DNA of 64,000 bases from Pseudoxanthomonas sp. (lineage in GTDB: Bacteria > Pseudomonadota > Gammaproteobacteria > Xanthomonadales > Xanthomonadaceae): the NCBI RefSeq assembly GCF_024710765.1, contig NZ_JANJUE010000163.1, positions 40,832 through 104,831 of the forward strand. The letters are read 5' to 3'. Positions 4,248 to 56,398 of the stretch are shown here, in pieces. Positions within the stretch are counted from its first letter, which is position 1. Each line of letters opens with the position of its first letter. Below the pieces are notes generated by a model. That model had not been told where the DNA came from. It was given only the letters and a program-made list of their open reading frames with translations, and did not search any database. Made by a program: the position numbers and the translations under genes.

Positions 4248-7200
4248 GGGTTTCTCCCGGATTATCCGCGTGCTCCGCGTCCTCGGTGCGCTCGACATCT
4301 CCGGCACGCTTCCTGCGGCTGAAGACGCGCTGCACCACCACGAAGAACAGCGGCACGAAGAACACGCCCAGCACGGTGCCGACGATCATGCCGCCGAGCA
4401 CGCCGGTGCCGATCGCCCGCTGGGCGCCGGAGCCCGCGCCGGAGGCGATCGCCAGCGGCAGCACGCCCAGGCCGAACGCCAGCGAGGTCATGATGATCGG
4501 GCGCAGGCGATCGCGGACCGCGTTCATGGTCGCCTCGATCAGTCCCACGCCCTTCTCCAGGTTTTCCTTGGCAAACTCCACGATCAGGATCGCGTTCTTG
4601 CTGGTCAGGCCGACCGTGGTCAGCATCGCCACCTGGAAATAGACATCGCGCTCCATGCCTCGGAAGGTGTTGGCGAGCACCGCGCCGAGGATGCCCAGCG
4701 GCGCGACCAGCAGCACCGCGGTCGGCACGCTCCAGCTCTCGTACATCGCGGCCAGGCAGAGGAACACGATCAGCAGTGACAACGTGTACAGCAGCGGCGT
4801 CTGCGCGCCGGCCTGGCGTTCCTGGTAGGACAGCGCGGTCCACTCGATGCCGAAGCCCGGGGGCAACTGCGCGGCCAGGCGCTCGATTTCGGCCATCGCG
4901 TCGCCGGATGCCACGCCCGGCGCCGGTTCGCCCTGGATCTCCATCGCCGACACGCCGTTGTAGCGTTCCAGGCGCGGCGAGCCGTAGTCCCAGTGCTTGG
5001 AGGCGAAGGCGCTGAAGGGCACCATCTTGCCCTCGGCGTTCTTCACCGACCACAGATCGAAATCCTCCGGCACCATGCGGAACGGCTGATCGGCCTGCAC
5101 GAACACGCGCTTGACCCGGCCGCGATCGACGAAGTCGTCGATGTACTGGCTGCCCCAGGCGGTGGCGAGGGTGCTGTTGATCTGGTCCATCGACAGGCCC
5201 TGCGCGCTGGCCTTGGCGACGTCGACGTCGATGCGGAACTGCGGGGTGTCTTCCTGTCCGTTGGGACGCACGTTGGCAAGCTTGCCGCTTTCGGCGGCCA
5301 TGCCCAGCAGCTGGTTGCGCGCGGCCAGCAGCGCCTCGTGGCCCTGGCCGCCGTTGTCCTTCAGGAAGAAGGTGTAGCCAGAAGCGGTGCCCAGTTCCGG
5401 AATCGCCGGCGGCGGGAACGCGAAGATGAAGGCGTCCTTGATGCCGCCGAGCGCGGCCATCGCGCGCCCGGTCACCGGCATCACGCCATCCTCCTCGCCA
5501 CGCGCGCCCCAGTCCTTGAGCTTGACGAAGGCCATGCCCGCGTTCTGGCCCATGCCGGCGAAGCTGAAGCCCTGCACCGAGAACACCGATTCCACCGCGC
5601 CCTTCTCGTTTTCCAGGAAATGGTTCTCCAGCGCCCGGATCGACGTCAGGGTGCGCTCCTGGGTGGCGCCGACCGGCGCCTGCACCAGCGCCATCAGCAC
5701 GCCCTGGTCCTCGTTGGGCAGGAACGCGCTGGGCAGGCGCACGAACAGCACGCCCATCAGCACGAACATGCCCAGCACGATGCCCATGAAGCGCCACGGC
5801 CGGGCGAGGATGCCGCGCACGCCGCGCTGGTAACTTTCGCTGGAACGGTCGAAGCCACGATTGAAGGCGTTGAAGAAACGCCCGGCCGGGCCGCGATGGG
5901 CGACATGGTGCTCGCCCTTCTTCAAGGGCTTGAGCAGGGTCGCGCACAGCGCCGGGGTCAGCACGATGGCGACCAGCACCGACAGCGCCATCGCGGAGAC
6001 GATCGTGGCCGAGAACTGGCGGTAGATCACGCCGGTGGAGCCGCTCATGAACGCCATCGGCACGAACACCGCCGACAGCACCAGGCCGATGCCGACCAGC
6101 GCGCCGGTGATCTGGCCCATCGATTTGCGGGTGGCCTCCAGCGGCGACAGTCCTTCCTCGGACATGATCCGCTCGACGTTCTCCACCACCACGATGGCGT
6201 CGTCCACCAGCAGACCGATCGCCAGCACCATCGCGAACATCGTCAGCATGTTCACCGAGAAGCCCAGCGCGGCCAGCACGCCGAAGGTGCCCAGCAGGAC
6301 CACCGGCACGGCGATGGTCGGGATCAGGGTGGCGCGGAAGTTCTGCAGGAACAGGTACATCACCACGAACACCAGCACGATCGCCTCGAGCAGGGTCTTC
6401 ACCACGCCCTTGATCGACACCCGCACGAACGGCGTGGTGTCGTAGGGCGTCTCGGCCTTCAGGCCGGCCGGGAAGAACGGCGTCAGCTCGTCCAGGGTCT
6501 TCTGCACGCCGGCGGCGGTGTCCAGCGCGTTGGCGCCGGTGGCCAGGGTGATGGCCAGGCCGCTGGCCGGCTGGCCGTTGTAGCGGGTGACGAAGTCGTA
6601 GGACTCAGCGCCCAGTTCGACCCGGGCCACGTCGCTCAACCGCAGTTCCGAGCCGTCCTGGCCGCTGCGCACGACGATGTCGCGGAACTGCTCGGGGGTC
6701 TGCAGGCGCGACTGGGCGTTGATGGTGGCGTTGAGCTGCTGGCCCTTCACCGCCGGCGCGCCGCCGAGCTGGCCGATCGCAACCTGTGCGTTCTGCGCCT
6801 GGATCGCGGCCACCACTTCCGGCACCGAGAGGTGGTAGGTGTGCAGCTTGTTCGGATCCAGCCAGATGCGCATGGCGTACTTGCCACCGAACACCTGGAT
6901 GTTGCCGACGCCGGGCACGCGGCTGAGCTGGTCCACGACATTGGAACCGACGTAGTCGGAGATGTCGTTCTCGTCCATGCTGCCATCCTCGGACACGAAC
7001 GCGAGCACGTTGAGGAAGCCGGAACTGGACTTGGCCACGTTGATGCCCTGCCGCTGCACTTCCTGCGGCAGCAGCGGCATCGCCAGTTGCAGCTTGTTCT
7101 GCACCTGTACCTGCGCGATGTCGGGATTGGTCCCGCTCTCGAAGGTCAGGGTGATGGTGGCCATGCCGTTGGAGGAGCTGTTGGACGAGAAGTAGATCAG

Positions 7201-48181: not shown

Positions 48182-49003
48182 CTAGCGTCGCCTCACCTGC
48201 GCCAGCGCGGCGCGCAGCGGTGGCTTCAACGGCAGCGCCAGCTTGCGATAGAGGAACGACAACATCCGCCGCGAGCGCGGCACCCGCCAGGCCAGGCCTT
48301 CCTCGATGGTATAGACGCAGGGCGCGCAGGCGCCGCAGGGCTTGCCGTTGATCGGGCGATGGCAGAACCAGGTCATGTCCATGATCGCGTCCCAGCCGGC
48401 TTCCGCCGCCTCGCGCGCCATGGCCCGCTTGTCGATCTGGAACAGTGGGAAACCGAAATGCCGGAACAGGGTGTACTCGGCGCCGCCTGCATCGCGCGGA
48501 TCCAGCCGATGACTGCGATAGCCGCCGACAGTCTCGAACGATTCCACCCGGTCCGCGAGCAGGGCCTGTACCTTGTCGTCCACGTGCACGCTCAACTCGA
48601 TGCCGTCCAGGCCATGCTGGCGGCAGAACAGCGCCAGCCATTCGTACTGGCTGCCGATGTAGACGCGCGAGCGCACCTCGCGCAGCGCGTCGCTGACTTC
48701 CGGATCGCGCGCGAGGTCCGCGACCCGGAACACCCGCAACGGCCGCAACAGCACCCGCGTTTCCGGATACCGCTCGTGCAGCGCGTCGGTGATGCGCTGG
48801 ATGCTCCGCCGCTCGGTCGCCGTGGATGCGCGGGTCGGGTCCTCCAGGTAATACGGCGTCACCGGCAGCCGGTGCTTGAGCAGCAGCCGCAGCAGCTGGA
48901 AGGTGGAGTCCCAGCCGCTCGTCCACAGCAACGGCACGCCGCGCGCGGCGATTCCGACGATGGCGTGGGCGGACGGAATGACCCGGATGTTCGTTTCCTG
49001 CAT
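48182..49003 (-). CDS. QueC-like PP-loop enzyme (7-cyano-7-deazaguanine synthase superfamily)
   Basis: PP-loop LLWTSGWDSTFQ and CHRPINGKPCGACAPC, matching the C-x8-C-x2-C-x2-C zinc site of QueC. Confidence 0.8.
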   Translation of the reverse strand: MQETNIRVIPSAHAIVGIAARGVPLLWTSGWDSTFQLLRLLLKHRLPVTPYYLEDPTRASTATERRSIQRITDALHERYPETRVLLRPLRVFRVADLARDPEVSDALREVRSRVYIGSQYEWLALFCRQHGLDGIELSVHVDDKVQALLADRVESFETVGGYRSHRLDPRDAGGAEYTLFRHFGFPLFQIDKRAMAREAAEAGWDAIMDMTWFCHRPINGKPCGACAPCVYTIEEGLAWRVPRSRRMLSFLYRKLALPLKPPLRAALAQVRRR

Positions 49004-49392
49004 GTGCGCATGGACTCCGTGCCGATCGTCTCGGCGAGGTGGGAAGCGCATCCACAACGGCAAAGCAGGCACTCTCCGATGCAGCGCGCGCCGATGCTAG
49101 CGCGCGCCCACGCGGATGACGTGCAATTCTCTTCACTCCACCGGATGAACAGGCGATGCCGGCGTTCGCCTTCATGGTCGCCTCATGTTTGTCACGTCGT
49201 TCGTCCACGCGTTCCACATCCATGAACGCGCATGCGTCGCACGAACCGGCCGTCATGTCGCAAGCGCGTGAAGCTGCTTCATTTTTTGCTTCGCCTGCAC
49301 GTTCTGCTCACGCCGCCGATACCCATCATCGCCCACCGGGGTCAACGGCAACGCATCGTTGGCCTCGCCCTTCCTTCCCCCAGGAACGATTC

Positions 49393-50115
49393 ATGCACGC
49401 CCAAGCAATGACACGCGATCAATTCTGGATGTTCGCAGACGAGGCCAAGGAAGCCACCGAAGCGCTGGCCGCACAGCGCATGCAGATCCTCGAACACCTG
49501 TCGCCCGAAGCGCTGCGCCAGGTCTGCATCCAGTACCGGTTCTTCACCATCGACTACATCAGCGATCTCGCCCTGCTGGTGGCGCGCCTGCCGTTCGGCG
49601 GCCTGCGCAGCCTGCTGGGCCAGATCCTGGCCGAGGAACTGGGCGAAGGCGATCCCGCGCGCGCCCATCCCACCGTGTACGACCGCTTCCTCGCCACCAT
49701 CGGCGTGCCGGCGGAAGAACTGGACACGCCGTTGCCCGCCAACGAACACATCCTCAAGGGCCTGACCCGCGACATGGCCAACCACCCGATCGCCTTCGGC
49801 GTCGGCCTGCGCGGCATGGGCGGCGAATGCCTGTGCCAGACCTACCTGTCGGTGATGTTCGAGCACATGCGCCGCAATCCCTACCTGGTCGCCAACGCCG
49901 AGCGCATCGACTGGGAGTTCTGGACCATCCATACCGGCGAGGAGGACATCATCCACGGCGAGCTCACCCGCGCGGCCATCGATGAATACCTGCGCCACGA
50001 TCCGGCGGTGCTGCCCGAACTGGCACGCGGCTACGAGCGCAGCATCTCGGCCTGGAACCTGTTCTGGCAGAACATCCTCGACGCCTGCACGCCGCAGCTG
50101 GAAGCCGCGTCATGA
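49393..50115 (+). CDS. Heme-oxygenase-like iron-containing redox enzyme (PF14518/HDO-type)
   Basis: RFFTIDYISDLALLVARLPFGGLRSLLGQILAEELGEGDPARAHPTVYDRFL, ..EEDIIHGELT..; pattern of acidic/His ligands in a helical protein. Confidence 0.75.
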   Translation: MHAQAMTRDQFWMFADEAKEATEALAAQRMQILEHLSPEALRQVCIQYRFFTIDYISDLALLVARLPFGGLRSLLGQILAEELGEGDPARAHPTVYDRFLATIGVPAEELDTPLPANEHILKGLTRDMANHPIAFGVGLRGMGGECLCQTYLSVMFEHMRRNPYLVANAERIDWEFWTIHTGEEDIIHGELTRAAIDEYLRHDPAVLPELARGYERSISAWNLFWQNILDACTPQLEAAS

Positions 50116-50531
50116 GCGCGATCACCCAGTTCCACCTCGCCTTCCCGGTCCGCGACCTGGACGAGGCGCGCCACTTCTACGGCGACGTCATGGGCTGCCC
50201 GCAGGGGCGCAGCGACGTGTCCTACCAGGACTTCGATTTCTTCGGCCATCACCTGGTCGCGCACATCGGCGGCGACGGCCAGCCGCTGCACAACGGCCGC
50301 TTCGATGGCGAGGCGGTGCCGGTGCCGCACTTTGGCATGAACCTGGACCGGCCCGCGTGGGAAACCCTGGCCCGGCGCCTGAAGGACGCGCAGGTCGATT
50401 TCCACGAAGAGCCGCACCTGCGCCTGAAGGGCAAGCCCGGCCAGCACGTGACCATGTTCCTGTTCGACCCTTCCGGCAACGCGCTGGAATTCAAGTCCTT
50501 CGACGATCCCGAACAGACATTCATCCCCTGA
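50112..50531 (+). CDS. VOC superfamily protein (glyoxalase/extradiol dioxygenase-like)
   Basis: FHLAFPVRDLDEARHFYGDVMGCPQGR..PHFGMNL..MFLFDPSGNALEFKSF; ATGA overlap with upstream gene. Confidence 0.9.
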   Translation: MSAITQFHLAFPVRDLDEARHFYGDVMGCPQGRSDVSYQDFDFFGHHLVAHIGGDGQPLHNGRFDGEAVPVPHFGMNLDRPAWETLARRLKDAQVDFHEEPHLRLKGKPGQHVTMFLFDPSGNALEFKSFDDPEQTFIP

Positions 50532-55499: not shown

Positions 55500-55664
55500 G
55501 GCGCTCCTGCGTCGCGTCGCTTGCCCGGCGGACTATGCCTGCACCGGCACACCATCGCAATCGCGCCCGGCGGCGTGCGCCGGCGTGCGGCGAAACGGAG
55601 ACATGAAAAAGGACGGTTGTCGCCAGTCGCCCTTCTCCTGCGCTTTCGACCTGCGGAACATCAC

Positions 55665-56398
55665 AGCGGTTCGGTGCTGCCCCTTCCCCGCAGGCGGGGG
55701 AAGGAGCGATCTGCGCTCGCTTGCAGTCATCGCAGCGTTTCGGCGTTGCCCTTCCCCCGCGTGCGGGGGAAGGCCGGGATGGGGGCGCTTCCGGCGATCG
55801 CTGTGTGAGCGACAGCGGCGGTGTTTGAGCTGGGGTGGCGCCAGGGTGCGGATTTTCTCCGGTCGCCCCCACCCCAACCCTCCCCCGCACGCGGGGGAGG
55901 AAGCGATCTGCGCTCACTTGCAGTCATCGCCGCGTTTCGGCGTTGCCCCTTCCCCCGCAAGCGGGGGAAGGCCGGGATGGGGGCGCTTCCGGCGCTCGCT
56001 GTGTGATCGGCGGCGGCGATGCATGAACTTGGCGGCAGGCGCCGGGACGCGGATTTTTTCCAGTCGGCCCCCACCCCAACCCTCCGCCGCCAGCGGGGGA
56101 GGGAGTGATCTGCGCTCGCTTGCAGTCGTCGCAGCGTTACGGCATTGCCCCTTCCCCGCACGCGGGGGAGAGAGCGATCTGCGCTCGCTTGCAGTCGTCG
56201 CCGCGTTTCGACGTTGCCCCTTCCCCCGCCAGCGGGGGAAGGCCGGGATGGGGGCGCTTTCGGCGCTCGCTGTGTGATCGACGGCTATGGTTTATGGGTT
56301 TGACGCGGGTGCCCGGGTGCGGATTTTTTCCAGTGACCCCCACCCCAGCCCTCCCCCGCCAGCGGGGGGAGGGGGACGGTCTGCGCTCGCGGGTATCC
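55665..56398. repeat. Tandem ~200-bp repeat array built from GC-rich palindromes (CCTTCCCCCGC-N-GCGGGGGAAGG)
   Basis: Anchor GATCTGCGCTC(G/A)CTTGCAGTC at 55708, 55905, 56107, 56176 and a partial at 56377 (spacings 197, 202, 69, 201). Confidence 0.9.

Follow-up and report, generated by a model that had tools for sequence, protein, structure and literature searches.

Gene content and arrangement of the locus

The stretch of Pseudoxanthomonas DNA that was analysed as a whole (64,000 nucleotides, "the window" in the following) contains a gene for a PP-loop ATP-pyrophosphatase of the QueC superfamily, which is divergent from a gene pair encoding a heme-oxygenase-like diiron oxidase (HDO) and a VOC protein (Table 1). 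We refer to these three genes as the cassette. An earlier reading of this DNA, made from the letters alone, had proposed the same three open reading frames, and all of them were found in their places. The start of the HDO gene at its ATG (49393) is backed by the lengths of the orthologs. For the PP-loop gene the conservation within the family begins only at about residue 45; translation may therefore really start downstream of the GTG from which the protein is counted.

Table 1. Genes and sequence features of the cassette, in window coordinates.
Feature	Position	Strand	Remarks
QueC-superfamily PP-loop ATP-pyrophosphatase	48182..49072	-	296 aa counted from GTG
Strongly cationic C-terminal helix, PP-loop protein residues 266-295	48188..48277	-	DSSP on the model
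Zinc site C237-x8-C246-x2-C249-x2-C252	48317..48364	-	aligns with the QueC zinc motif in PDB 3bl5/2pg3
PP-loop motif TSGWDS, residues 51-56	48905..48922	-	invariant or near-invariant alignment columns, motif counts
Divergent intergenic region between PP-loop and HDO genes, 320 bp	49073..49392	.	
Block TGCACGTTCTGCTCACGCC in the divergent spacer	49296-49314		upstream of HDO; partly conserved among genus members (MAFFT, upstream regions)
Heme-oxygenase-like diiron oxidase, HDO (PF14518)	49393..50115	+	240 aa
VOC (glyoxalase/dioxygenase fold) protein	50112..50531	+	139 aa

The stop codon of the HDO gene and the start codon of the VOC gene share the tetranucleotide ATGA (50112-50115), an overlap already pointed out in the sequence-only reading together with a His/His/Glu triad in the VOC protein, which we find to be invariant (see below). 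The block TGCACGTTCTGCTCACGCC may serve the divergent unit as a promoter or operator. Neither a riboswitch nor any other Rfam element was found near the cassette, and it is not surrounded by regulator or transporter genes or by a larger cluster for biosynthesis. At some distance, beyond an NYN-domain gene, the window contains clustered imperfect G+C-rich direct repeats (55650-56390) with units of 31-137 nt in 3-5 copies and spacings of approximately 69 and 200.

The PP-loop protein and its relation to QueC

The loop variant T[SG]GWDS occurs in 30 out of 30 cassette PP-loop sequences and keeps the Asp and Ser of the SGGxDS consensus; the C-x8-C-x2-C-x2-C pattern is likewise present in 30 out of 30. 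Among 44 aligned members of the PP-loop family the four cysteines as well as W50, T51, G53, D55 and S56 are invariant. The QueC-style zinc site and the TSGWDS variant, both recognized at the outset, are therefore not only present but conserved across the family. The Pfam QueC profile (PF06508) scores 21.8 bits on the PP-loop protein at a cut-off of 22 and covers the C-terminal part only, while 39 of the 44 family members are matched by it at E≤0.1.

The structure model of the protein (pLDDT 90) has its best PDB match (Foldseek) in Cap9 (9nto, E=3.4e-4), a QueC-family enzyme, in a complex with CdnD. MnmA/TrmU, TtuA, GMP synthase and TilS are also matched, and the nitrile synthetase ArtA weakly. 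According to this model the minus-strand protein is a predicted PP-loop ATP-pyrophosphatase that is most like QueC-family enzymes. The 32-residue tail carries a net charge of +10, and the mean tail charge among cassette members is +9.4. An amphipathic membrane helix at this end was considered and rejected: the tail is cationic, and its amphipathicity is not above that of shuffled sequences (0.37).

The genome of the window possesses a canonical queC elsewhere (G000:C172:5676-6305, 261 bits), which is complete and keeps the motifs SGGMDS, YGQRHTSE, VPARN and YPDC in addition to the zinc motif; a queD-type gene is also located elsewhere in this genome. The NCBIfam QueC model TIGR00364, with a cut-off of 150.3 bits, gives the cassette PP-loop protein 14.4 bits. 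In the PP-loop family GSQY stands where QueC has VPxRN, YPDC is missing, CH is found for CY, and the YxQxHxxE motif is absent or replaced. As the full-length alignment between the PP-loop protein and QueC is weak, residues can be equated only approximately beyond the two end motifs. For QueC of E. coli, Tyr35, Arg99, Tyr131 and Tyr189 were reported to be required in a 2026 survey of PF06508 (PMC13329287). Because a separate, intact queC is present and the PP-loop protein is without residues needed by QueC, we reject a role of the cassette in queuosine biosynthesis. The sequence-only reading, which had favored an uncharacterized cassette over queuosine synthesis, is well supported by this separate queC and by the co-occurrence of the three genes described below.

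The survey distinguishes clusters for QueC, QatC, LarE, PfkB-linked proteins, WbpG-type amidotransferases, GMP synthase and Cap9, and three archaeal clusters (PMC13329287). Compared by description, the cassette branch fits none of them.

The HDO and VOC proteins

The suggestion of a heme-oxygenase-like iron enzyme holds for the HDO protein with regard to its family (PF14518, 53.1 bits), its helical-bundle fold and its conserved predicted ligands. Its AlphaFold model (pLDDT 90) yields 43 PDB matches at E≤0.001, in which CADD comes first (TM 0.73/0.81, 18% identity) and is followed by HrmI, BesC, RohS and SznF. The residues E82, H92, E145, H180, D185 and H188 are invariant in 22 orthologs and also in homologs with 41-45% identity, among them the copies of R. 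rhizogenes and Nostoc (41-44%). A set of three histidines and three carboxylates was described for most HDOs (PMC13185094), and the six predicted ligands, which were assigned by conservation and not from coordinates, fit this set.

Outside the Lysobacteraceae no member of the HDO subfamily was detected in 399 genomes of the phylum by sequence or in 299 by profile, and viral contigs contained no HDO relatives. The copies found outside the family are all located on plasmids, in R. rhizogenes, Nostoc and, as a weak match, Scytonema; those of R. rhizogenes and Nostoc have no VOC or PP-loop gene nearby. The R. rhizogenes homolog (44% identity; L111 on pC5.7c, L122 on pColt5.8a) shares its operon with cysE and with genes for a methyltransferase and a DMT exporter. 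This operon adjoins two YcaO genes and a TfuA gene, and the region is possibly a RiPP-like or cysteine-linked cluster. The homolog with 41% identity from Nostoc sp. ATCC 53789 (L112, on the mobilizable plasmid pNsp_g) adjoins a lactate permease gene, approximately 8 kb from genes for sat, sulfite reductase and PAPS reductase.

The VOC protein matches PF00903 with 32 bits (cut-off 20.6), and H8, H73 and E126, the predicted metal triad, are invariant in 18 sequences. This subfamily is widespread as an orphan: it occurs in 32 out of 274 genomes of the class at about 50% identity with no HDO of the cassette subfamily adjoining. Such stand-alone relatives are often divergent from a LysR gene. We dismissed the idea of deducing the pathway from them, as their neighbourhoods are too heterogeneous. 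In Lysobacter lactosilyticus a different VOC-like gene (L032:5898-6269) adjoins a PP-loop paralog that does not belong to the cassette type (6276-7097).

Conservation of the three-gene unit

Within the genus, HDO occurs in 13 out of 38 genomes, and the same 13 possess a full-length PP-loop gene of the cassette type adjoining it. Among 300 sampled genomes of the order there are nine HDO carriers, and eight of these have the PP-loop gene as well. A scan of species genomes yielded 20 named Lysobacteraceae loci (L012-L031) from Pseudoxanthomonas, Luteimonas, Lysobacter and Vulcaniibacterium; together with the genome set, and after removal of duplicates, 26 distinct loci were compared. The divergent layout with PP-loop on one side and HDO-VOC on the other is found in all 26, so this arrangement recurs more often than chance would allow, and the question whether the three genes co-occur in other genomes is answered in the affirmative. 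The spacing between HDO and VOC is −4 nt in most loci, and the divergent spacer measures approximately 120-470 bp. Since the outer flanks vary from locus to locus, it is the three-gene block itself that is conserved.

In a maximum-likelihood tree all cassette PP-loops form one clade (support 100/99), and the other 50 rows fall outside. The distances of PP-loop and HDO co-vary (r=0.82, Mantel p≤0.0005), which is due in part to common descent and does no more than agree with a coupling of both. Of the three genes PP-loop evolves fastest, with a mean identity of 61% compared to 73% and 84% for the other two.

Two genomes show the unit in an altered state. In G318 (L069:8296-9615) HDO and VOC are joined in a single open reading frame of 439 residues with about 45/50% identity; a class-III aminotransferase gene adjoins this fusion, and the genome possesses no PP-loop gene. 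In the sister genome G007 (L076:8357-8667) HDO and VOC are gone, and a decayed, frame-shifted PP-loop gene remains in the syntenic slot of the window, beside a gene that from its sequence we take to encode an indolepyruvate oxidoreductase. On plasmids no PP-loop gene was found.

The cassette is a unit which is inherited together and is, as far as sampled, confined to the Lysobacteraceae, a family that lives in soil and water. In our view the three genes very probably work together.

An accessory aminotransferase

Unlike the window, the loci of most other Lysobacteraceae have a class-III aminotransferase gene directly after the VOC gene; it is found in L015 and L018-L031, and in the Pseudoxanthomonas genomes G005 and G011. 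These copies are approximately 77-84% identical to the one in L019, and the copy beside the G318 fusion is 73% identical. The protein belongs to NCBIfam PRK06062 (736 bits, cut-off 472), and its closest solved structure, by a clear distance, is the taurine:2-oxoglutarate aminotransferase 6jix, with E=3e-114 against 8e-81 for the runner-up. The gene is missing from the genome of the window and present in only two out of 38 genomes of the genus, which makes it accessory and not obligatory; it has apparently been lost more than once.

The wider PP-loop family

The PP-loop family is broad and extends to Bacteroidota, Actinomycetota, Bacillota, Synergistota and Saccharibacteria. In a raw tally of 109 neighbours of non-cassette members, a TupA-like ATP-grasp gene appears 13 times, a group-1 glycosyltransferase about 10 times and a sugar-transfer ATP-grasp six times. 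TupA is not known as a common neighbour gene. G005 and G037 also have PP-loop paralogs in EPS-like loci. Two or three paralogs commonly stand in tandem, as in L035, L039, L044, L050, L051 and L059, and several of these arrays lie in polysaccharide or glycosyltransferase loci. Outside the cassette the neighbourhood of this family leads to polysaccharide loci, an association that was absent from the sequence-only reading.

Proposed function and alternatives

The cassette probably serves to make or alter a small molecule resembling an amino acid. In the scheme we propose, an amino acid or omega-amino compound would enter the pathway; in most relatives it would be handled by the taurine:2-oxoglutarate-type class-III aminotransferase, which, where present, would interconvert amine and carbonyl. 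HDO could then oxidize the amino compound with O2 at its predicted 3-His/3-carboxylate diiron site. As suggested by the naturally occurring HDO-VOC fusion, its product may be passed to the VOC metalloenzyme with the His/His/Glu triad, either by hand-over of the substrate or inside a complex. The PP-loop enzyme, using ATP, would adenylate a carboxylate on the compound or on its acceptor, leading to an amide; a second adenylation by the same enzyme might lead to a nitrile as an alternative product. The formation of nitriles with ATP has precedents in QueC/ToyM and in other ATP-pyrophosphatase folds (PMC13060819).

We infer the substrate class, the order of the steps and the amide or nitrile product by analogy to the gene families. 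The sequence-only reading had combined amide or nitrile chemistry with two oxygenase-type enzymes; this predicted chemistry fits the families. Our preferred reading is a cassette for the biosynthesis or tailoring of a small molecule, with HDO and VOC as the oxidizing core, an amino acid or amine as substrate and a QueC-like activation of a carboxylate towards an amide or nitrile. Several points weigh against this reading: the aminotransferase is not obligatory, the VOC protein occurs alone in many bacteria, plasmid homologs of HDO have neither VOC nor PP-loop nearby, the wider PP-loop family is tied to polysaccharide loci, the full-length match of PP-loop to QueC is weak, and regulator, transporter or larger cluster are missing around the cassette. 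We put the reading forward tentatively, at a little short of an even chance, and with less confidence for any particular product.

The neighbourhoods of the PP-loop relatives suggest the main alternative, in which the product of PP-loop is placed on a cell-surface glycan. The PP-loop protein would be a membrane-associated enzyme forming amides on sugar acids, and HDO, VOC and the aminotransferase would make or trim the attached amine, in a decoration of the cell envelope. The vicinity of distant PP-loops to TupA-like ATP-grasp, glycosyltransferase and sugar-transfer ATP-grasp genes is an argument for this, as are the tandem arrays in polysaccharide loci, the EPS-like paralogs of G005 and G037 and the very cationic C-terminal helix with its mean tail charge of +9.4. 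The cassette itself, however, lies outside polysaccharide loci in the window and in most relatives, its clade is distinct from the polysaccharide-linked PP-loops, and the tail is not significantly amphipathic. We regard this explanation as unlikely. More doubtful is a catabolic or detoxifying role, in which aminotransferase, HDO and VOC would degrade an amine, a sulfonate or a sulfur amino acid of external origin and PP-loop would activate the acid for breakdown or conjugation. One would expect a transporter, a regulator or a desulfonation gene, none of which the cassette has, and ATP-dependent formation of amides or nitriles is usually biosynthetic. What speaks for degradation is the similarity of the aminotransferase to a taurine-degrading enzyme, the sulfate-assimilation genes about 8 kb from the Nostoc plasmid homolog of HDO, the operon of the R. 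rhizogenes homolog with cysE and an exporter, and the orphan VOC relatives, often divergent from LysR regulators.

It is improbable that PP-loop is just a divergent neighbour of a pathway formed by HDO, VOC and, where present, the aminotransferase. G318, with HDO-VOC and aminotransferase and no PP-loop, would agree with this, and so would the fast evolution of PP-loop. Co-occurrence in 13 of 13 HDO-bearing genomes of the genus, 26 invariant loci with differing outer flanks, the single clade of cassette PP-loops and the joint loss in G007 argue against it. The similarity in fold to Cap9 in complex with CdnD raises the idea that PP-loop joins a small acid to the N-terminus of a protein, possibly in defence. 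This we hold to be very improbable: the deazaguanine-site motifs common to QueC and Cap9 are missing from PP-loop, PADLOC matches none of the three proteins, and neither a CD-NTase nor QatA, QatB or QatD was seen beside the cassette. An anti-phage role of the CBASS IV/Qat type found no support, with neither a PADLOC match nor cap or qat partners seen nearby. Hardly credible, finally, is a function of HDO as a self-sacrificing p-aminobenzoate synthase of the CADD type. CADD is the nearest solved fold by its TM scores, but the identity amounts to 18%, VOC, PP-loop and aminotransferase would be left unexplained, and with two PabB/TrpE-type genes in the genome an alternative route to p-aminobenzoate is not needed.

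If the small-molecule reading is extended to the wider family, PP-loop could represent an undescribed large branch of the QueC superfamily with the signature WT[SG]GWDS ... GxQY ... CHxPx(n)CGxCxPC. This branch would be in wide use in polysaccharide loci as an amide ligase that activates carboxylates, and would have been recruited once, in Lysobacteraceae, into a stable unit alongside the HDO-VOC pair, making a new amino-acid-derived amide or nitrile metabolite via a new HDO-to-VOC relay. This extension is speculative, and we consider it rather unlikely as a whole.

In the literature searched (open-licence papers) we found no description of the HDO-VOC pairing or of the cassette PP-loop branch. 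To the clusters analyzed in PMC13329287 the cassette adds a QueC-superfamily branch that is marked by a signature and a genomic context of its own. It also offers a compact, phylogenetically validated target of three or four genes for new HDO chemistry, with an HDO that is either coupled to a VOC protein or fused with it. Being small and carried by only about one in three closely related genomes, the cassette lends itself to a direct test in which the metabolomes of natural carriers and non-carriers are compared.

Comparison with known systems

PP-loop and HDO belong to known kinds, a QueC-superfamily ligase and an HDO oxidase, and we claim no new category. With canonical QueC (cluster 1 of PF06508) the PP-loop protein shares the position of the PP-loop, the P/K motif and the C-x8-C-x2-C-x2-C pattern, which align, whereas SGGxDS, YxQxHxxE, VPxRN, YPDC and a Tyr that follows the first zinc Cys are features of QueC that set it apart. 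Cap9 and QatC are QueC-family protein modifiers of CBASS and Qat systems; Foldseek ranks Cap9 first for the PP-loop model, but Cap9 retains the deazaguanine signature, which the PP-loop family is without. The TupA-like ATP-grasp loci, which belong to polysaccharide clusters, are adjoined by distant PP-loop members. TupA-like ATP-grasp represents a different ATP-using fold, however, and the cassette lies outside loci of this type.

The taurine:2-oxoglutarate aminotransferase (6jix; PRK06062) is of the same family as the VOC-adjacent gene, which differs in being part of an operon with HDO and VOC. The closest solved relative of the cassette VOC protein is 3rri (E=1.2e-17), a structure that bears no more specific name than glyoxalase/bleomycin resistance protein/dioxygenase, for which we know of no HDO partner. 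The HDO diiron oxidases CADD, BesC, HrmI, SznF, UndA, PolF and MboA have the fold and the 3-His/3-carboxylate ligands in common with the cassette HDO, while the identity to the known HDOs stays below 22% in structural alignments and the cassette enzyme is distinguished from them by its coupling or fusion to a VOC protein.
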